Source of the DNA: Rosistilla ulvae | GTDB taxonomy: Bacteria; Planctomycetota; Planctomycetia; Pirellulales; Pirellulaceae | Direction: 5' to 3' | NCBI RefSeq assembly: GCF_007741475.1 | Contig: NZ_CP036261.1 | Span: 3,535,798 to 3,599,797, forward strand | DNA: 64,000 nt | Shown: piece by piece, positions 20,634 through 30,924 of the stretch | Numbering within the stretch: the first letter of the stretch is position 1 | Layout: each line of letters starts with the position of its first letter | Position numbers and translations under genes: made by a program | The notes under the pieces: generated by a model | Database searches by the model: none | What the model saw: only the letters and a program-made list of their open reading frames with translations | Told to the model about the DNA's origin: nothing

Positions 20634-22436
20634 TCAACGTTCGTACGAAAGCAAGAACTTCGACCGCTCCTCGGCGAACTTGCGCAGCGACATCGGTTGG
20701 TCCGCTTTGGGGGCGTCGCTGGTTGTTGCGTTCTGGAACGCTTCGTAGGGTGAGAGCTTCCGCGTGTCGGCTTTGACCAACGGATCGATGAGATTTCGAT
20801 ACTCTTCAACCATCGGCCCCAGTTGATCCCAAGCGACCGAATCTGCGGCGATCTCACGCACGTATTGCATGTAACGCGTTCGCAGTTCGGGGACCGCTAG
20901 CAGTCGGCTGCGCAGTGGCATCCGATCGCTGTCGAGTCCGATCAAGGGATTGGTGTCGACACCACCGCCGCGCGGTCCACGTCCTCCAGGTCCACGTCCC
21001 ATACCTCCACCGGGCCCGCCAAAGCCACCGGGACCGCCGGGGCCACCAAAACCTTCAGGTCCGCCGGGGCCTGCAAAACCGTCGGGCCCTCCAAATCCAC
21101 CACGCCCCTCGGGGCCTCCGCGGCGGCCGGGCTCAAATTCGCGACCGGGACCAAATTCTGGAGGTCCACCGCGGCCGAACTGCTCGCCGCGTCCTGGTCC
21201 GCGTCCGGGGCCGTCGCGACCGTCACGTCCCGGTCGTGGACCGCCGTGCCCCGCCAATCCGAACCCTTCGTTCATGTCGTGCGGGATGATGTGGAATTTC
21301 CCATCCTTGCCGCGGAACAGGTTGTAATCGCTGGCGCGCGTCCAGTATCCGTCGCCGTTGAGGAGCACGACGTCCAGAGCCAGGAATTTTAGCGTCTCAT
21401 CGATGTCGAGGATCGGTTCCAGTGCGGCGACCAATTGTTCCGGCGGCGTTTCGTTCAGCGTCTTGCACAATTCGATCAGCGCCTGCCATTCCTTCTCGCC
21501 ATCGTTGGACTTCATCTCGAACCGCGCCTTGTACTCGGCCAAGTCGTCTCCCAGGTAACGCAACCCGCCATCGGCGCCTGGGTTGCCGGGAACCTTCCAG
21601 CGGGTTCCCTTCGACCCGTCGTAGTTCTCCTTCAGAAACGTCTTGTCGAACTGTTGCACGCTGTTGTACAGCCCCCAGCTCTCCCCATTAACGACCACGT
21701 GGACAAAGTTCGCTTTGGGCGCCGGAATGTATTTGCGAACTATCTGCGAGTAGACAACGCTACTCATCATCGAAGGATCGCCGTGACAGTTGAGCAAATT
21801 CAACGTCTTGTAGCCGCCGATTCGCTGGTCCTCGTCGATCGTATCCAATGAAACGTTGAACGAACGCTTGGATCCACGCGGAACATGCCCGAACGAAGAG
21901 GCACCTCGAAAGTGTACGCCGACACCTTCGTATGTCTTCCCGTCGACGATCATCGTCGCAGGAACGTCGACATCGGTGCCGTGGAATTCTTCTAGCTCCG
22001 TTTCCCACTCGTCGTTTTCAAATTCCAGGAAGACCGTTCGCAGGACGCTGGGATCGTAGAGCGGCTTGTCGGGATAGACGGCGACATCGGCAACCTCCAC
22101 CTTCGTACCTGGGGTTCCCGGTTCGGATTGCCCACCGGGACCGCGACCTCTGCCCCCCGGGCCTCCAGGACCACCACGGCCTCGTCGCTCGCCTTCCGTC
22201 GCGGCATCCGACGCAATCGCTTTGCGAGCGACTTGGCGTTCATCGGCGTTAAGCCATCCGTTGCCGTCGACATCGTATTGCTTCACAATCTTTCGCTCTT
22301 CGCGGTTGGGGCCTCCAGGCCCGCCGGGACCGCCTGGTCCAAAGCCAAACATGCCGGGGCGTTGGGCGTAGACGATGCCGGCGGCAATCGCTCCCAACGG
22401 GACCAGAAACAGTAGCGAACGAACGTTTTTTTTCAT
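20634..22436 (-). CDS. CotH-type kinase with EF-hand-like and Gly-Pro-rich segments
   Basis: 600 residues from ATG 22436, which has ACAGGTG upstream; ATG 22457 is in frame. The signal segment is MKKNVRSLLFLVPLGAIAAG. Residues 55-66 form an EF-hand loop (DVDGNGWLNADE). The CotH kinase-like fold spans about 115-395, with RGASSFGHVPRGSKRSFNV, NGESWGLYNSVQQFDKTFL and the late acidic site DYNLFRGKDGKFHIIPHDMNEGFG. Residues about 399-495 are a Gly/Pro/Arg-rich low-complexity block, with shorter GGPGGP runs near 34-43 and 90-105. CotH proteins are atypical kinases first described in spore coats; outside spore-formers they often lie beside VTC and DUF4956 genes, as here. Confidence 0.88.
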   Translation of the reverse strand: MKKNVRSLLFLVPLGAIAAGIVYAQRPGMFGFGPGGPGGPGGPNREERKIVKQYDVDGNGWLNADERQVARKAIASDAATEGERRGRGGPGGPGGRGRGPGGQSEPGTPGTKVEVADVAVYPDKPLYDPSVLRTVFLEFENDEWETELEEFHGTDVDVPATMIVDGKTYEGVGVHFRGASSFGHVPRGSKRSFNVSLDTIDEDQRIGGYKTLNLLNCHGDPSMMSSVVYSQIVRKYIPAPKANFVHVVVNGESWGLYNSVQQFDKTFLKENYDGSKGTRWKVPGNPGADGGLRYLGDDLAEYKARFEMKSNDGEKEWQALIELCKTLNETPPEQLVAALEPILDIDETLKFLALDVVLLNGDGYWTRASDYNLFRGKDGKFHIIPHDMNEGFGLAGHGGPRPGRDGRDGPGRGPGRGEQFGRGGPPEFGPGREFEPGRRGGPEGRGGFGGPDGFAGPGGPEGFGGPGGPGGFGGPGGGMGRGPGGRGPRGGGVDTNPLIGLDSDRMPLRSRLLAVPELRTRYMQYVREIAADSVAWDQLGPMVEEYRNLIDPLVKADTRKLSPYEAFQNATTSDAPKADQPMSLRKFAEERSKFLLSYER

Positions 22437-22482
22437 GTTGGCACCTGTGGTGTTCATTGGTTGAAGAGTGATGGGAAGCTAA

Positions 22483-23178
22483 TTAGCGAGCCGGGCGAAG
22501 ATCGACACTCTGGACTCCTTCGAGAAGGTTCAGGCGGTTGAGGACTTCGACCGGATCGATGTCGGGACGGAGGCGAACTCGGTACTGCAGATCGAGCGAC
22601 GCTCCCTGTTTGCTTGTCGATCCGGAGGTGAACTCGACCTTGCTCATCAGGGCGTCAAAGACCTCGTGGAACAACAGTTGTGGATCGCGTCCGACCGCCA
22701 ACCGAATCTCGAGCCTGGTGTCCTGGGGCGTGACTGGACCGCTATTGCCACCGCGGGGGCGGACCAAAGCTGCGGCCAATCCCATCACGCTGATACCTAC
22801 TAACGCGACAGTGATCTGATCGGCGCCGACAGCCATCCCTACCAGGACTGCAAAGATCACAAACGTGATGTCGTACGTATCGTCGACGACGGTGCGGAAG
22901 CGGACGATCGACAGAGCCCCAACCAGTCCGAAGGCCCACGCGACGTTCTGCCCGATCACCAGTGGCAGCATCGCACACAGGATCGATAGCAGCACCAAAG
23001 TCGGCGGGAAGGTCGGCAGGAACTTTTCTCGCGGCCGGACGGCCCAGTAGATCGCGGCGATCGCGCATCCGCACAGGAAGGCGGTCCCCAGACGCAACGC
23101 CATCTGCAATGCACTGCTATCGTTTGGCGTGCCAAGCAATTGGGAGGGATCGACCGATAGGGTTAGCCAAGTTGGCAT
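22483..23178 (-). CDS. DUF4956 membrane protein
   Basis: 231 residues with four predicted membrane helices (about 27-47, 55-76, 78-90 and 104-140) and a soluble C-terminal domain of about 80 residues. The motif GLVGALSIVRFRTVVDDTYDITFVIFAVLVGMAVGA is the DUF4956 hallmark. The start overlaps the end of the VTC-domain gene by 16 bp, implying coupled translation, and the CotH gene follows 46 bp later. Function unknown; the conserved trio suggests the membrane component of one machinery. Confidence 0.92.
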   Translation of the reverse strand: MPTWLTLSVDPSQLLGTPNDSSALQMALRLGTAFLCGCAIAAIYWAVRPREKFLPTFPPTLVLLSILCAMLPLVIGQNVAWAFGLVGALSIVRFRTVVDDTYDITFVIFAVLVGMAVGADQITVALVGISVMGLAAALVRPRGGNSGPVTPQDTRLEIRLAVGRDPQLLFHEVFDALMSKVEFTSGSTSKQGASLDLQYRVRLRPDIDPVEVLNRLNLLEGVQSVDLRPAR

Positions 23179-23900
23179 TGGATGGTTTCCTTGTTGAGTG
23201 TGCCGACTTGGTTTGGGGATGCAACGGAATTCGCTTCGGTTGACGCGAGCCGCTGTTGGGCCAGCGTCATCAAGGTCGTCGGTTGAACCGGCAACAACTG
23301 GAATTTATAAAGCAGTCGCTTAAAACGCAGCGGCAGCGCGTCGGCGAATTTCATCCGCAAGAAGTTTGATTGAAGCGAAACAAAGCCGGCGTCTTGGTCG
23401 CTGTTGGCGAGCGTGTCGTAGGATGTTGGCGTTTTAAGACGGATGTTTCGATCCAAAGTCAATCGGCAGTTGTCGGATGCTTCAGGGAACAAGACGGTAC
23501 GCTCGAAGCCAACGTTCAAGCACGCACTCAATTGCTTTTTGACAATTTCTTTGTGGAACCATTTGCCGGGCCACTTTTTGTCGACGTTCACCGAATCGAG
23601 CCGCGGCAAGTCGTTGGCATCGACGTGCGTTTGGCGAAGCGAGGCGAGATCATCCTTCCAACGCTTGCACTCCAATGCGACTGCTCCGCAACAGCCAAAA
23701 CGTCGGATGCGGTACTGTCGCGATTTAGATGATGGTCTCTTCGAAGGCTTGCCGACGTAATAGCGATCCTCGAGGCAATCGACTGTCGAAAGCGGACCGC
23801 CGTCGCGGCGAACCGCTGTCAGTACGGCTTCGACCACGGCATCGGTCAAGAGAAACGTGTATTCCGAACGGGGGCTGTATTTCAAACGAATGACTCGCAA
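23163..23900 (-). CDS. VTC-domain (polyphosphate polymerase-like) protein, divergent
   Basis: 245 residues resembling the VTC catalytic tunnel domain. R-x-R and E-x-K-R strands are visible (QYRIRR, VALECKRWKDD), as are RLTLDRNIR and the C-terminal MKFADALPLRFKRLL. Several positions usually basic or acidic in active members look changed: the C-terminal LE(I/V)K strand reads LRMK and the usual SKY is not found. Polyphosphate synthesis is therefore doubtful. The start must be TTG 23900, because no ATG or GTG lies between the upstream in-frame stop and the conserved region. The stop region overlaps the DUF4956 start. Confidence 0.8.
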   Translation of the reverse strand: MRVIRLKYSPRSEYTFLLTDAVVEAVLTAVRRDGGPLSTVDCLEDRYYVGKPSKRPSSKSRQYRIRRFGCCGAVALECKRWKDDLASLRQTHVDANDLPRLDSVNVDKKWPGKWFHKEIVKKQLSACLNVGFERTVLFPEASDNCRLTLDRNIRLKTPTSYDTLANSDQDAGFVSLQSNFLRMKFADALPLRFKRLLYKFQLLPVQPTTLMTLAQQRLASTEANSVASPNQVGTLNKETIQCQLG

Positions 23901-24000
23901 TGACGAACGCGGTTGAAGCGGCGGTGACGGATCACCCTTTCAACATGTAGTGCGTATCGAATTGCGGCAGTGGGCCAAGGAATCGAAGAAATCGATTGAA

Positions 24001-26346
24001 TTAGTCGGCGAGCCCAAGCGATCTGCGGCCGCGTTGCTGAAACGCCTCGAATTGAGGATCGATCTCGGGCGTTGCACCGGTCAGCATTTCCGTCGCCTCG
24101 CGATGCAGGATCACCATTTCGACGAAGTCGATCCACGGACCGGTGTTGCCCGATCGATCGACCACGTTGCCGGTCATCGTTCGCAACGCATCGTCGGCCA
24201 ACGCGAGTTCGGTTTCGGCTTGTGCGTCGTCACCCAACTGGTGATACGCCATCGCGCGCAGCGAATGGACCATCGTGCCGCTGGGGCCCCGCGAATGCGA
24301 CGCCAGCTCCAACCAACGCAACGCCTGCCTTGGCTGGCCGGCGCGCAATCTTGCCCAACCCGCGATGTATTGAAGGACGCTACGCGGAGCAAACATCGGC
24401 CTCCCTGGACCGTCATCGGGACCGCGAGGCCCGCCAGGTCGCGGGCCGTCGCGCTGGGGACCATCGGGGCGTCGGCCGCCAGGTTCCGGAGGACCGAAGC
24501 CGGGGCCGCCAAAACCGTTCGCTTCCGATTCGTCCAGTAGCGTTTCGCTATCGTCAGCCAAACGCTTCGCATCGGTTGCATTAAGCGGATCGATCAAGCA
24601 CGATCGCAGCGTATTAAACGTCAGCGGTCGCGTATCGTCTGCCGCCTGCTTCATCAATCGCGAATAGATTTCACGGTAGTCATCCGAGCGGCCGGTCACA
24701 TAAAAGAGTGCGGCGGCCCCTTCCCACTGCCGGCTGGCAAGAGGAGCTTCCAACCGCATCGCTTTGGAGAAATCTTCGGCTGCTTCGTCCCATAAACTCA
24801 ACCGAGCTCGCATCATCGCGCGTTGGAACCAAACCAGATAGTAGTTCGGAATCAGGTCGACCGCTTCGTTGAACTTCGCGTTCGCGGCCGCAAACTCTTC
24901 CGCGTTTTCGTTGGCAATCGCCTCGCTGACCAACTGATTGGCGTTCTTCAGATTGTCGGCGAACTGTTCGACTTCTTTGCGTGCTTCGATGGCGTCGCGA
25001 AGTGCCGATTCCTTTTCGTCCCGTTCGGCAACGGCTCGTGACGCTTGGTACAAACTGCCCGCCGTCCCCAACAACAGGGCGGTGGCGACGAGGGTAGCGG
25101 TCAGCAAGGCGGCCCGATTCCGCGCGGCGAACTTGCGCAGCCGATACGCTTTCGACGGCGGCCGAGCTTCGATCGGCACCGATTCGAGAAACCGCCGTAA
25201 GTCATCGCTCATCGCCGACGAAGATTCGTAGCGGCGAGTGCGATCCTTCTCGACAGCTTTCATTACGATCCAGTCCAAGTCGGTTGGGATCGCTTCACGC
25301 TGTTTCGCCACCGTCAGTTCGACGTGCGTTCGAGGTTGGACGGTGGTGTTGGTGTCGGCCGCTTTAATCGTTGTCAGTCGGATGCTCGGCCGCGGCGGCT
25401 GTTCTTCGCGAATGATTCGCCGCATCTCATCGTATCCCGCCGTTTCCAGGCGGTTCCGATCGAATGGCGTCGTCCCCGTCAGAAGTTCATACAACAGCAC
25501 ACCCAGCGAATAGATGTCGCTGCGTGTATCGACGTCCAAACCGCTCATCGCCGCCTGTTCGGGGCTCATGTACAGCGGCGTACCGATCATCGCGTAGAAC
25601 TGCGTATAGATCGTCTGGTCGGTCAGGTTTTGGCCGATCGCTTTGGCGACGCCGAAATCGATCACCTTCACCACCGGCTTGTCGTCGTGCATCGTGACCA
25701 TCACGTTGGACGGCTTTATGTCGCGGTGGATGACTCCCTTTTGGTGCGCGTGCTGGGTGGCGGCACAGACGTCGCGAAACAGTTCCAATCGCTGCCGCAG
25801 CGGCATCGCATGTTGGTCGCAGAACTTCGTGATCGGCAGCCCTTTGACAAGTTCCATCACAAAGTAGGGACGGGCGTCGTCGGTCACTCCCGCGTCGAAG
25901 ACCCTTGCGATATTGGGATGGTCCATGATCGCTACGGCTTGCCGTTCGGCGTCGAACCGAGCCAGGATCTGCTGGGACGCCATCCCCGGTTTGATGATCT
26001 TCAGGGCGACCTTGCGGCGGACCGGCTTTTCTTGCTGAGCGACAAAGACGAGGCCAAATCCTCCTTCGCCGATCTGTTCCATCAAGCGGTAGGGACCGAT
26101 CGTCGCCCCGATGTGGCTGGAGCTTTGAACGGCGGGGGCGTCGAGTGTTTCGTCCATCTGCACAGGCGAAAGAGGCGGACGATCCAAGGCGTTGCCGGGA
26201 CGATCATGCGCCGCCAGCAACGCTTCGACCTCGGACCGCAGCTGCGCATCGTCGCCGCACGCGTCGCGCAGGTAGGCGGCTCGCTGATCGGGTTCCTCGC
26301 GATCGAGCGCTTCCAGGAAGATCGTTTGTTGACTGGGATTGGGCAT
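24001..26346 (-). CDS. Membrane Ser/Thr protein kinase with C-terminal TPR-like domain
   Basis: 781 residues. An N-terminal acidic segment of about 80 residues precedes a PknB-type kinase domain: IGEGGFGLVF (92-101), K116 in VALKIIK, HRDIKPSN (H207-D209), DFG at 230-232 and MSPEQA. One transmembrane helix lies near residue 425 (LLTATLVATALLLGTAGSLY), followed by a coiled coil and a TPR-like helical domain (WDEAAEDFSKAMRL). A Gly-Pro-Arg-rich insert at about 612-650 resembles the CotH low-complexity block. It lies 62 bp after an ECF sigma gene on the same strand. Such ECF/kinase pairs are known in planctomycetes and suggest kinase control of the sigma factor. Confidence 0.93.
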   Translation of the reverse strand: MPNPSQQTIFLEALDREEPDQRAAYLRDACGDDAQLRSEVEALLAAHDRPGNALDRPPLSPVQMDETLDAPAVQSSSHIGATIGPYRLMEQIGEGGFGLVFVAQQEKPVRRKVALKIIKPGMASQQILARFDAERQAVAIMDHPNIARVFDAGVTDDARPYFVMELVKGLPITKFCDQHAMPLRQRLELFRDVCAATQHAHQKGVIHRDIKPSNVMVTMHDDKPVVKVIDFGVAKAIGQNLTDQTIYTQFYAMIGTPLYMSPEQAAMSGLDVDTRSDIYSLGVLLYELLTGTTPFDRNRLETAGYDEMRRIIREEQPPRPSIRLTTIKAADTNTTVQPRTHVELTVAKQREAIPTDLDWIVMKAVEKDRTRRYESSSAMSDDLRRFLESVPIEARPPSKAYRLRKFAARNRAALLTATLVATALLLGTAGSLYQASRAVAERDEKESALRDAIEARKEVEQFADNLKNANQLVSEAIANENAEEFAAANAKFNEAVDLIPNYYLVWFQRAMMRARLSLWDEAAEDFSKAMRLEAPLASRQWEGAAALFYVTGRSDDYREIYSRLMKQAADDTRPLTFNTLRSCLIDPLNATDAKRLADDSETLLDESEANGFGGPGFGPPEPGGRRPDGPQRDGPRPGGPRGPDDGPGRPMFAPRSVLQYIAGWARLRAGQPRQALRWLELASHSRGPSGTMVHSLRAMAYHQLGDDAQAETELALADDALRTMTGNVVDRSGNTGPWIDFVEMVILHREATEMLTGATPEIDPQFEAFQQRGRRSLGLAD

Positions 26347-26408
26347 AACTTGTATTGCGTCAAACCCGATCGCAAAGGGACAGAAAATCCCCGCAAATCT
26401 TCGCGTTG

Positions 26409-26972
26409 TTATTCGCCGTCCATTTGATTGCGAAGCCAAGCTCGGGCGTAGGTCCAGTTTCGCTTGACGGTCCGCGACGAAACGCCTAGCACGACGGCGG
26501 TTTCGTCGATCGTCATCCCCGTGAAATAACGCAGCTCGACCAACTTGGCCAACCGAGCATCGTGATCCTGCAGCTTGATCAATGCTTCGTTGAGAGCCAG
26601 CAGCGTCTCGTCGTCCTGAGGGCAAACCGCGGCGTCGTTCTCGCCAAGGTCCGCCCGCACCATCCCGCCACCACGTTTCTCCGCGTTCCGTCGGCGAGCG
26701 CTTTCGATAAGGATCCGCCGCATCGATTCTGCAGCGGCGGCAAAGAAGTGTTCCCGGCCATTCCATTTCTGCCGGTCGGTTCCGCCGACTAGCCGCATGA
26801 ACGCTTCGTGGACCAGGGCTGTCGGTTGCAGCGTGTGCCCCGCCTTCTCGCGAGTCATCCGGCTGGCAGCCAAGCGACGCAGTTCCTGATAGACGATCGG
26901 CAACAACTGCTCCGCAGCCTGCTGATCCCCGTTGTCGATCGCTTCGAGAATGTTCGTGACGTCGCTGTTCAT
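26409..26972 (-). CDS. ECF sigma factor (kinase-associated planctomycete type)
   Basis: 187 residues from ATG 26972, preceded by a strong GGAGGA site; the longer frame to 27125 has no comparable signal. Region 2 includes the short helix QELRRLAASRMTREKAGHTLQPTALVHEAFMRLVG, typical of the sigma-70-like ECF group annotated TIGR02999. Region 4 is VELRYFTGMTIDETAVVLGVSSRTVKRNWTYARAWL, the -35-reading helix-turn-helix. No anti-sigma gene is adjacent; the downstream Ser/Thr kinase is the likely regulator by analogy with known ECF-kinase pairs. Confidence 0.93.
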   Translation of the reverse strand: MNSDVTNILEAIDNGDQQAAEQLLPIVYQELRRLAASRMTREKAGHTLQPTALVHEAFMRLVGGTDRQKWNGREHFFAAAAESMRRILIESARRRNAEKRGGGMVRADLGENDAAVCPQDDETLLALNEALIKLQDHDARLAKLVELRYFTGMTIDETAVVLGVSSRTVKRNWTYARAWLRNQMDGE

Positions 26973-28724: not shown

Positions 28725-29106
28725 CAGAAAAATCCTTGCGTGCAGACCCGCTGGGCGGGAAGATAAGTGGCAACAAAGAGGTCCTAACGTGGACTAGGGC
28801 ACCGTAGTCTACAGCGTCCAGGCTTTCTGTGCACGCCCACGATCGGCACAGTGCAGGGCTATTTTGTGTTCAAACTGGATCGTCCTTGGAAATCGAAACG
28901 CGACGTGTCAGCAAGCGATCGGCACTCTCACTCGCTCACCCGTCGGGTTACAAAAAGTGTACAGACTCGAAGGCGTTCGCAGCGGCCGGCCGACGGTTGT
29001 TCGCCTCGTTCTGACAGCATCCGTGGTACGATGTCGTGCCCCAAATACGAGATTCACCGCACCGTTGCCGACCGCGACGGTGCCGCAGCATTCTGGAGTC
29101 ACCCCA

Positions 29107-30924
29107 ATGAACTATCTACTGACTTGTTGTGCCACGATCGCGTTGACGCTAGCGGTGTCGCCGGTTCACGCAGAAGTGGTCCCGACACCCAAAGGGATCG
29201 TCTTTGTGCTGGTCGATGACATCGGGTACGGCGATATCGACGTGCTGTATCCAAGCGATCTCGAGACGCCGAACATCGACTCACTGTACAAGGAGAGTCT
29301 TCGGCTGACCGATTTTCATGTCGGCAGCACCTGCGCCCCGTCACGTGCTTCGATCATGACCGGCCGCGCGATCAATGCCGGTGGTGTCTGGCATACGATC
29401 GCCGGACGCGAACTGCTGCGCGAGAACGAACAGACGATGGCCGAGGTCTTTCGAGCCAACGGCTGGGCGACGGCGATCTTCGGAAAGTGGCATCTCGGCG
29501 ACGGCTATCCCTATTCGCCGCGGTTCCGCGGGTTTGACCTCGCGGTGGTCCATGGTGGTGGCGGCGTCGGCCAGGGGCCCGACTATTGGATGAACGACTA
29601 CTACAGCGACGTCGACTTCGATGGCAATCCAACCGCGGCCGACGTCTATTGGGAGAACGGTCAGACGTTTGAAGCCGACAAATTTTGCACCGACCTTTGG
29701 TTCGATCGCTCAAAGGAATTCATCAAACAGTCGGTTGCTGACGGCAAGCCGTTCTTCTGCTACCTGCCGACCAACGCGGCCCACGGACCTTTCAACGCCC
29801 CTCATGGCTTCAAGAAAGGATTCGATGGCCTGATCGAAAACGTCGACGAAAATATGGGCCAACTGGACGAGTTCCTCGCCGCCGAAGGGATCCAGGACGA
29901 CGTGCTGGTGATCTTCAGTACCGACAACGGAACCACGGGGCGGCGACTGGGCGGCCTGCGCGACCGCAAGGGGAGCCACTACGACGGAGGGCATAACGTG
30001 CCGTGCTTTTGGCGGTGGAAGAACGGCGGCATCGGCGGTTCGCCCGAAGCGGCTCACGATGTGGCGTCGTTGACCGCCGGAATGGATCTGTTGCCAACCT
30101 TCATGGATCTATGGGGATTGAAGCGTCCCGACGGTGGGCTGCCTCTGCACGGCATCAGCCTCAAGGAGATGCTGCTCGGCGACGACTACATGCCGCAACA
30201 ACGGACGCTGATCATCGACACGCAGCGTGAAGCCGACCTGATGAAGTGGCGGCGGGCGTGCGTTTTGCGCGATGAAGTTCAGGACGGCAAGATCACGCAC
30301 AAGTGGCGGCTCATCCAAAGCAAACCGACTTCGAAACAGGAGCTGTACGACTTCCTTGTCGACCGCGACACCAACGACAACATCATCGCGGGTCACGATT
30401 CCACTGTCGCTTCATTGGTGGAAAGCTACGACGCTTGGTGGGATGACATTTCCGCAGGGTGGGAAGCGTTCCCGCCGTTTGTCGTCGACGATCGTAGGGA
30501 ACCGGAATTGACGCTGTATGCGCACAGTTGGATCGGCAAGTCGATGACGCCGTGGAACCAGAGTCACATCCTGCAAGGTGTCGTCGGAACAGGCACTCAT
30601 TCGATCCGTTTTGATTCCGCCGGTCGCTACCAAATTGAGCTTCGCCGCTGGCCCCGCGAAGACGGCGGTGCGATCGCCGGTAAAAGCTCCACCGGGGCAG
30701 GAAAGGTGATTGCGGCAACAAAGGCTCGCGTCGCACTCGCAGGTGTTGGCGAAGCGACCAAAGCAATCAAGCCGCAAGATGATGCTGTTGTCTTCGAGAT
30801 GGAGGTCCCAGCCGGAGAAGCGACTACGCTGACGACCGCGCTGTTGGACGGCGACGACAAGGTTCTCAACGGAGCCTTTTACGTTTACATAAGAAAGGCA
30901 TCCGACGGTAGCGGCAAAGAGTAG
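29107..30924 (+). CDS. Secreted arylsulfatase-type sulfatase
   Basis: 605 residues from ATG 29107 with signal peptide MNYLLTCCATIALTLAVSPVHA; the frame is open upstream to 28864 but that extension carries no signal and is rejected. The first metal motif is VFVLVDDIGYGDI, the formylglycine site is C76-A-P-S-R80 in GSTCAPSRASIMTGR, and FGKWHLGD and DNGTTGRR complete the site. The last ~130 residues (from about 475) form a beta-rich appendage typical of planctomycete sulfatases. Likely acts on a sulfated glycan. A palindrome now split by an IS element lies about 50 bp downstream. Confidence 0.93.
   Translation: MNYLLTCCATIALTLAVSPVHAEVVPTPKGIVFVLVDDIGYGDIDVLYPSDLETPNIDSLYKESLRLTDFHVGSTCAPSRASIMTGRAINAGGVWHTIAGRELLRENEQTMAEVFRANGWATAIFGKWHLGDGYPYSPRFRGFDLAVVHGGGGVGQGPDYWMNDYYSDVDFDGNPTAADVYWENGQTFEADKFCTDLWFDRSKEFIKQSVADGKPFFCYLPTNAAHGPFNAPHGFKKGFDGLIENVDENMGQLDEFLAAEGIQDDVLVIFSTDNGTTGRRLGGLRDRKGSHYDGGHNVPCFWRWKNGGIGGSPEAAHDVASLTAGMDLLPTFMDLWGLKRPDGGLPLHGISLKEMLLGDDYMPQQRTLIIDTQREADLMKWRRACVLRDEVQDGKITHKWRLIQSKPTSKQELYDFLVDRDTNDNIIAGHDSTVASLVESYDAWWDDISAGWEAFPPFVVDDRREPELTLYAHSWIGKSMTPWNQSHILQGVVGTGTHSIRFDSAGRYQIELRRWPREDGGAIAGKSSTGAGKVIAATKARVALAGVGEATKAIKPQDDAVVFEMEVPAGEATTLTTALLDGDDKVLNGAFYVYIRKASDGSGKE

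Follow-up and report, generated by a model that had tools for sequence, protein, structure and literature searches.

In the complete, 7.48 Mb genome of the planctomycete Rosistilla ulvae, a stretch of 64,000 nucleotides (hereafter, the window) harbors five consecutive genes on the minus strand. They encode an extracytoplasmic function (ECF) sigma factor, a Ser/Thr kinase, a VTC-like protein, a DUF4956 membrane protein, and a CotH kinase-like protein (Table 1). The initial annotation of this DNA, made from the letters alone, had described such a codirectional block with the last three genes (below, the trio) placed 100 bp behind the ECF–kinase pair and with overlapping VTC and DUF4956 frames; this observation was confirmed by gene calls and Pfam matches, the coordinates giving exactly 100 bp and an overlap of 16 nt. 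Its interpretation, a regulated envelope system uniting both halves, is partly supported: on balance, we moderately favor the view that the five genes work as a single unit and that an envelope module is controlled by a sigma factor switched through phosphorylation.

Genes and proteins of the block

Genes were called with our own open reading frame (ORF) caller. In the window and in locus L075, it fused the ECF gene with the kinase ORF; in both cases, the sigma factor was recovered separately, and its start (MNSD) is backed by the N-termini of relatives. The gaps amount to 62 bp between the ECF and kinase genes and 25 bp between the DUF4956 and CotH genes. For the kinase, the Pfam scan was made with a 771-aa form of the protein, and a hydropathy scan showed a single transmembrane (TM)-like segment at residues 412–432. 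By Pfam profile search, DUF4956 and CotH occur in one copy each in the genome (two CotH rows belong to the same frame), and a search for another VTC gave nothing even at E 0.1.

DUF4956, termed a domain of unknown function (PMC7112168), scored 42.8 bits against a Pfam cut-off of 30.6. Its AlphaFold2 model, with a predicted local distance difference test (pLDDT) score of 87, shows five helices long enough to span a membrane, followed by an ACT-like domain at the C-terminus. The fold matches of the protein are weak, all of them worse than E 0.001, and include ACT domains and the C-terminal domain of MgtC. The identity of the protein with MgtC itself was considered and dropped, the fold match being weak (2lqj, E 0.03).

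The CotH protein (151 bits, cut-off 23.8) possesses a TM-like N-terminal segment at residues 11–33, and its Pfam match is split in two pieces around a Gly-Pro-Arg-rich block at residues 390–520. Asp369 and Asp394, each conserved in 64 of the 65 aligned CotHs, are presumably the catalytic Asp residues. The EF-hand loop noticed in the initial annotation was located as well: DVDGNGWLNADE at residues 62–73, which scores below the cut-off of Pfam EF-hand_6 (E 0.24) and recurs with small variations in 17 planctomycete CotHs compared. In CotH kinases, a Tyr/Trp pair sandwiches the adenine (PMC12189002).

Table 1. Features of the five-gene block, positions counted from the first letter of the window
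Feature	Positions	Strand	Evidence or remark
ECF sigma factor, ECF43-like, 187 aa, start MNSD	26409..26972	-	PF07638 E 6.6e-71; TIGR02999
Thr51 codon, QPTA motif, sigma region 2.2 (predicted phospho-acceptor)	26820..26822	-	
Membrane Ser/Thr kinase, 781 aa; kinase domain, one TM-like segment, TPR	24001..26346	-	PF00069 E 8.6e-44; TPR matches
Gly-Pro-Arg-rich block of the kinase (residues 601-664), past the TM-like segment toward the C-terminus	24355..24546	-	
Kinase–VTC gap, exactly 100 bp	23901..24000	-	No terminator-like site listed, no ECF-type promoter found
VTC-like protein (predicted pseudoenzyme), triphosphate-tunnel domain, 245 aa, TTG start	23163..23900	-	PF09359 E 7e-4; AlphaFold2; Foldseek
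Arg182 codon, at the place of Vtc4 Glu426	23355..23357	-	
Thr209 codon, at the place of Vtc4 Lys458	23274..23276	-	
VTC/DUF4956 overlap, 16 nt	23163..23178	-	Identical across the eight clade loci, judged by coordinates
DUF4956 membrane protein, 231 aa, five membrane-length helices, ACT-like domain	22483..23178	-	PF16316 E 5.9e-11
CotH kinase-like protein, 607 aa, N-terminal hydrophobic segment	20634..22457	-	PF08757 E 6e-44
Gly-Pro-Arg-rich block of CotH, residues 390-520; pure stretch starts right after the PHDMNEGFG active-site motif	20898..21290	-	
Shorter Gly-Pro-Arg-rich block of CotH, residues 77-130, after the EF-hand loop	22068..22229	-	
EF-hand-type loop DVDGNGWLNADE, CotH residues 62-73	22239..22274	-	

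A predicted phospho-switched sigma factor and a predicted VTC pseudoenzyme

The sigma factor matched TIGR02999, used in place of the published ECF43 profile, with 226 bits against a cut-off of 126. Its region 2.2 reads QPTA with Thr51, in line with the motif [QS]xTA, and lacks the acidic DxxD; this combination is the hallmark of ECF43. The position number matches T51 of EcfK, and a Hanks-type kinase gene adjoins the ECF gene, as expected of this group. The published ECF43 factors likewise have a region 2.2 devoid of DxxD, display QTTA or STTA motifs, and are phosphorylated at a Thr (T51 in EcfK) by the neighboring kinase; other kinase-linked ECF groups, with mostly planctomycete examples, keep a DAED-like acidic motif (PMC13147305, PMC8999054). 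QPTA was present in all ten window-type ECFs found near a trio gene or in genome G405. The predicted membership of the window ECF in the ECF43 type is among the most secure new facts obtained here. The sigma factors of a second type of locus (see below) are mostly of the TIGR02984 type with D-x-S-D, unlike the window type (TIGR02999, QPTA); two of them were scanned, one scoring above the TIGR02984 cut-off and the other just below it. Locus L035 (7107-9484) displays ECF, VTC, and DUF4956 genes in this order with no kinase, and its ECF reads AEAEDIVQE, with the acids retained.

The second secure fact concerns the VTC-like protein. Its match to PF09359 (19.7 bits) lies under the Pfam cut-off of 23, which is barely exceeded by eroded relatives in G392 (23.5 bits) and G643 (24.1 bits). 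The AlphaFold2 model (pLDDT 82) retains the fold of the triphosphate tunnel metalloenzymes (TTM): Foldseek matched it to Vtc4 (3g3r) at E 1.4e-10, and chains of Vtc4, Vtc3, and Vtc2 fill the first 13 places among the fold matches. The active site was compared in 69 planctomycete VTCs, the incomplete rows L090 and L138 being dropped. Eight of them, from the window and loci L074, L075, L076, L117, L122, L129, and L133, are eroded in the same way. At position 15 of the window numbering (Vtc4 K200 equivalent), Thr, Val, or Ile replaces Lys in 8/8; at position 182 (E426, metal ligand), Arg replaces Glu in 8/8; at position 209 (K458, catalytic), Thr, Met, Ile, Val, or Ala replaces Lys in 8/8. The other 61 VTCs keep Lys15 (61/61), Glu182 (60/61), and Lys209 (61/61). 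At the same time, R64, R66, and R146 are retained in all eight and R134 in seven, including the equivalents of Vtc4 R264/R266. The residues were mapped to Vtc4 by profile alignment, the C-terminal piece of which scores low (2.6 to 6.5 bits); the mapping is backed by motifs and by solved chains whose substitutions fall in the columns expected: 7ytj_D has Ala at R264/R266, and 5iig_A has Asn at E426. In Vtc4, Glu426 holds the metal, K458 is called catalytic, and E426N belongs to the set used for inactivating the enzyme (PMC4641920, PMC9911596).

In the DUF4956 tree, the eight loci group together as a single clade (99/95), to which G307, a genome lacking VTC, is sister; the next branch unites L035 and L077, where VTC is intact, in a tree with long outgroup branches. 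Taken together, the VTC of the eight-genome clade is predicted to be a catalytically dead pseudoenzyme, and this prediction also ranks among the most secure ones. Consequently, the polyphosphate-making role implied by the family name probably does not apply in this lineage. Neither need polyphosphate synthesis depend on this protein, since a PF02503 polyphosphate kinase gene is present in 12/12 genomes checked; two of the eight (G613 and G587) possess an additional intact VTC elsewhere in the genome. L137 (G644), a locus with no kinase beside it, shows a separate, partial loss of VTC active-site residues, with Glu changed to Lys at the metal-binding position.

One may ask if the protein is still an enzyme, either with migrated or replaced catalytic residues or with another substrate. 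The retention of the fold and of the Arg ring would suit this possibility, as would Arg182, whose invariance in 8/8 suggests a kept role. We deem it improbable, given the loss of both the metal-holding Glu and the catalytic Lys in all eight proteins and the place of E426N in the Vtc4-inactivating set (PMC4641920, PMC9911596).

The opposite possibility is that the gene is merely decaying and functionless, DUF4956 and CotH being the only outputs. Within the genus of the window, the ratio of nonsynonymous to synonymous substitution rates (dN/dS) amounts to 0.26–0.31 for VTC and 0.03–0.13 for the other four genes; a 2.4- to 9-fold excess also fits slow decay and speaks against a maintained role, and the absence of the gene in G307 points in the same direction. 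Nevertheless, the frame is open in 8/8 genomes, the ratio is well under 1, Leu88 and Arg182 are fixed in 8/8 at the old catalytic sites, and the 16-nt overlap is conserved. The gene is, therefore, under slackened but non-neutral, purifying selection, and its being functionless seems doubtful, though with the best chance of the alternatives weighed here to the single-unit reading.

Recurrence and linkage of the two halves

The comparison was based on 80 loci picked by their DUF4956 match, not by kinase, with genes called in each. The set comprises the window and groups of 20, 19, and 40 loci, the last drawn mainly from loci whose DUF4956 resembles that of the window and scores lower, which leaves the high-scoring subfamily under-represented; L093, a duplicate of L042, was removed before counting. 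A single-query search of genome contigs with DUF4956 found no relatives; an alignment query did, and its best 80 of 577 matches make up a separate set used below for the wider context. The contiguous same-strand order ECF>kinase>VTC>DUF4956>CotH was found in 10/80 loci from seven genera and four families; the neighborhood is a real recurrent unit. Seven of these loci are of the window type (the window, L074, L075, L117, L122, L129, and L133) and three of the second type (L037, L078, and L152); in L122, a 110-aa opposite-strand ORF was called inside a gap of the run. In the remaining loci, the ECF–kinase pair is divergent, convergent, at least one gene away, or missing. Elsewhere in the set, four tandem CotH genes follow DUF4956 (L053:6505-11885).

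Gene neighborhoods were tested in the 76 loci left after omission of the four with DUF4956 alone. Kinases occupied 25/284 slots within two genes of the trio vs. 8/384 slots at least four genes away (Fisher p 1e-4); with one locus per genus, the median p was 0.003 and the worst of 300 draws 0.03. The slot immediately upstream of the trio held a kinase in 12/72 loci, on the same strand in 12/12, vs. 5/384 same-strand kinases in the far slots (p 3e-7, with no thinning for relatedness).

Two kinase subfamilies turned out to be coupled to the trio. In the kinase tree, the kinases of the seven window-type loci form one clade (100), and those beside most other trio loci fall in a second, separate clade (99). 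The kinase and CotH trees were built by a quick method with support from the Shimodaira–Hasegawa-like approximate likelihood-ratio test (SH-aLRT) only, and the label "window-type" of the kinase tree wrongly took in one unrelated kinase, L042_1472. A survey of 294 genomes of the order, giving lower bounds since three kinase candidates were scored per genome, found the second-type kinase at E below 1e-200 in at least 28 genomes, all from the family of the window. DUF4956 was present in at least 27 of those 28 vs. at least 136/297 overall, and both genes lay no more than 10 kb apart in at least 12 genomes. The association of the second type remains loose, because all 28 genomes belong to one family and several are unlinked.

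Another line of evidence stems from composition. The initial annotation pointed to similar Gly-Pro-Arg-rich blocks in CotH and in the PknB-type kinase; both were located, and they track linkage. Each protein was scored by its richest 60-residue stretch, a combined G, P, and R fraction of at least 0.5 counting as a block; such a block was found in 24/36 kinases located up to three genes from a trio gene vs. 5/38 other kinases, and in 59/65 CotHs vs. 25/620 other ORFs of at least 200 aa. Thinned to one per genus, the linkage test gave a median p of 0.005 and a 95th percentile of 0.048. Loci L154–L168, chosen partly by kinase, entered this test and the active-site comparison and stayed outside the neighborhood test. 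The five unlinked kinases bearing the block include that of G405, whose trio is 11 kb away, and another that sits four genes from a trio. As the kinase block lies beyond the TM-like segment and CotH has a hydrophobic N-terminus, both blocks may face the same compartment. Strong blocks were seen in ECF>kinase pairs at L263:2666-5746 and L265:2023-5487, with no trio gene in the fetched stretch.

Several observations weigh against the reading of the five genes as one unit. The initial annotation had taken relatives keeping the trio without the pair as one of two signs that the halves are independent, and such loci are the majority: a kinase lies within two genes in just 24/76 trio loci, so the link is labile. 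Among the best 80 of 577 relatives, kinases called no more than five genes from DUF4956 were confined to Planctomycetes. The G307, G436 (both linked), and G405 kinases belong to the kinase family of the window (family I) but sit among paralogues lacking a trio, two of these in the genome of the window, so their orthology with the window kinase is uncertain; the link may reflect one lasting association or repeated recruitment within that family. The Gly-Pro-Arg block is absent in 12/36 linked kinases, including those of the five-gene loci L078 and L152, and three block-bearing kinases are not near any trio; the sidedness of the kinase C-terminus and the export of CotH rest solely on the hydropathy scan. 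QPTA also occurs in five same-type ECFs without a trio (L156–L160), hence it marks the sigma type, not the link to the trio. VTC is missing in G307, and so are VTC and DUF4956 in G426.

The ECF consensus promoter that the initial annotation expected ahead of the VTC gene (AAC-N15–18-CGT, taken from PMC8103513) was found in 0/10 loci, upstream of the VTC gene (eight loci) or of the first trio gene where VTC is absent (two loci). Upstream of the ECF gene, it occurred in 2/10 loci and is not conserved; the best shared gapped dyad there was found in 4/7 loci vs. maxima of 2 or 3 in 100 base shuffles. Overall, promoter-like sites numbered 0 (shuffled mean 1.9) and terminator-like sites 7 (shuffled mean 7.7), with one of the latter, at chance frequency, inside the ECF–kinase gap.

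An alternative is that of two independent neighboring units, i.e., a common planctomycete ECF–kinase pair ahead of an unrelated VTC–DUF4956–CotH operon. Planctomycetes are rich in kinases (86 first-look candidates in the genome of the window), two close kinase paralogues reside in this genome away from any trio, and many trio loci lack the pair. We still consider this explanation unlikely in view of the enrichment of kinases near vs. far from the trio, the same-strand kinase immediately upstream of it, the coupling of two kinase subfamilies, and the Gly-Pro-Arg blocks tracking linkage. Since the same arrangement is kept in some relatives, the two halves probably work together.

Reduced forms of the block add to the picture. 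G307, from another family of the class, displays ECF>kinase>DUF4956>CotH, and G426 (L155:5909-10949) displays ECF>kinase>CotH at a contig end, the kinase beside CotH being of the window's family and the genome showing no DUF4956 or VTC match. The CotHs of both branch just outside the eight-member clade (SH-aLRT 97 and 92) in a tree built without the CotHs of 19 locus prefixes and with row L092_10184 inside the eight on a very long branch. G405 has an eroded trio and, about 11 kb off on the other strand, an ECF and a kinase 59% identical to that of the window; in G436, a kinase of the window's family is located on the far side of CotH. From the forms in G307, G426, and G405, it follows that ECF, kinase, and CotH are the parts most constantly together in this group. 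Could the genes be kept together by horizontal transfer of a cassette and not by joint function? The distribution is patchy, and the DUF4956 of G307 groups as sister to the eight-locus clade although that genome comes from another family. The window-family kinase, however, occurs near the trio in other arrangements (G405 and G436, though these may be separate recruitments), and ECF, kinase, and CotH stay together without VTC or without VTC and DUF4956; the cassette explanation appears unlikely, a shade more so than that of two independent units. The immediate neighbors of the block are a sulfatase gene (PF00884, 27156-28724), directly upstream on the same strand, and a PhyH dioxygenase gene; beyond the former, at 28864-30924, lies a long plus-strand ORF, sulfatase-like by eye. 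None of seven window genes scanned by Pfam was a mobile-element gene by best match, mobile-element origin itself not being searched for.

A possible phosphorylation switch for an envelope module

Operon transcription, phosphorylation, and output of the unit are predictions. The membrane kinase would sense the state of the envelope via its C-terminal TPR and Gly-Pro-Arg region and phosphorylate Thr51 of the ECF factor, which lacks the DxxD used by other sigma factors for RNA polymerase binding. The phosphorylated factor would then transcribe the operon, whose output would include DUF4956 and a cytoplasmic pseudo-VTC, probably translationally coupled, as well as an exported, putatively Ca-binding CotH kinase with a Gly-Pro-Arg block of the kind found in the sensor kinase. 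Since the metal-binding and catalytic residues were lost and the phosphate-binding Arg residues kept, the pseudo-VTC most likely serves DUF4956 as a regulatory subunit that binds phosphate, polyphosphate, or nucleotides, by analogy with the accessory subunits of yeast VTC. The TTM domains of Vtc2 and Vtc3 are non-catalytic. We infer that the parts may cooperate in the phosphorylation of envelope proteins.

This arrangement partially resembles several known systems. With the pairs EcfP–PknT of Vibrio parahaemolyticus and EcfK–PknS of Xanthomonas citri, the window pair shares the lack of the DxxD acids, a Thr phospho-site (predicted here), and the adjacent Hanks-type kinase gene; those pairs serve a type VI secretion system or the polymyxin response, whereas the window pair precedes VTC–DUF4956–CotH (PMC8999054, PMC13147305). 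The TTM fold is common to the window VTC and the yeast complex of the polymerase Vtc4 and accessory Vtc2/Vtc3 (PMC9911596, PMC4641920), but the window protein shows no SPX match, has DUF4956 as its putative membrane partner, and carries replacements at the E426, K458, and K200 equivalents. The same three protein families stand side by side in Gram-positive Pel clusters as the accessory genes cotH–polyphosphate polymerase–DUF4956–DUF4832 (PMC7112168); in the window, an ECF–kinase pair is added, the polymerase is eroded, and no Pel genes contiguous in the manner of pelDEADAFG are among the two immediate neighbors of the block. NELoc-2 of Clostridium perfringens combines a sigma factor gene (SgiI) with nearby VTC-domain genes and CotH, though with another sigma annotation, two VTC genes, and genes annotated as tubulin/FtsZ GTPase, and, besides CotH, the covered part of the table names no kinase (PMC2879425). 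Finally, the spore-coat CotH of Bacillus has a CotH-type kinase domain (PMC12189002; PF08757 here), to which the window protein adds an N-terminal hydrophobic segment, the EF-hand loop, and the Gly-Pro-Arg insertion. Planctomycetes are not known to form endospores. Among the best 80 of 577 DUF4956 relatives, the trio or parts of it are spread over many phyla; the full trio spans planctomycetes, acidobacteria, chloroflexi, firmicutes, and Streptomyces, and the VTC–DUF4956 pair occurs also in an archaeon. In four loci of Candidatus Poribacteria (L210, L213, L223, and L246), the order DUF4956>CotH>ECF on one strand may be a third case, independent of the other two, in which an ECF factor is tied to these genes. 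Among the listed matches from the open-access literature, subscription papers being mostly outside it, no description of an ECF–kinase–trio cluster or of an inactive bacterial VTC was found.

A bolder and, taken as a whole, rather doubtful extension of the single-unit reading is that VTC–DUF4956 represents a bacterial counterpart of the yeast VTC channel, making a phosphoryl polymer in the cytoplasm and passing it outward, where ATP is scarce, to feed the exported CotH kinase. In the clade of the window, the polymerase would have turned into a sensor of the polymer or of nucleotides, and control would have passed to the ECF43 sigma factor–kinase phospho-switch with a receptor sharing the Gly-Pro-Arg domain of CotH. 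If true, this would amount to an envelope protein-phosphorylation pathway with a kinase at both ends.

Overall, the predicted sigma factor–kinase switch makes the trio approachable through a signal input, the predicted phospho-site Thr51, and a predicted target, and would constitute a planctomycete case of sigma factors switched by direct phosphorylation. Since the polymerase of this clade looks dead yet is maintained, the structural role of VTC may be separable from the catalytic one, so DUF4956 and CotH could be studied here without polyphosphate synthesis by VTC.

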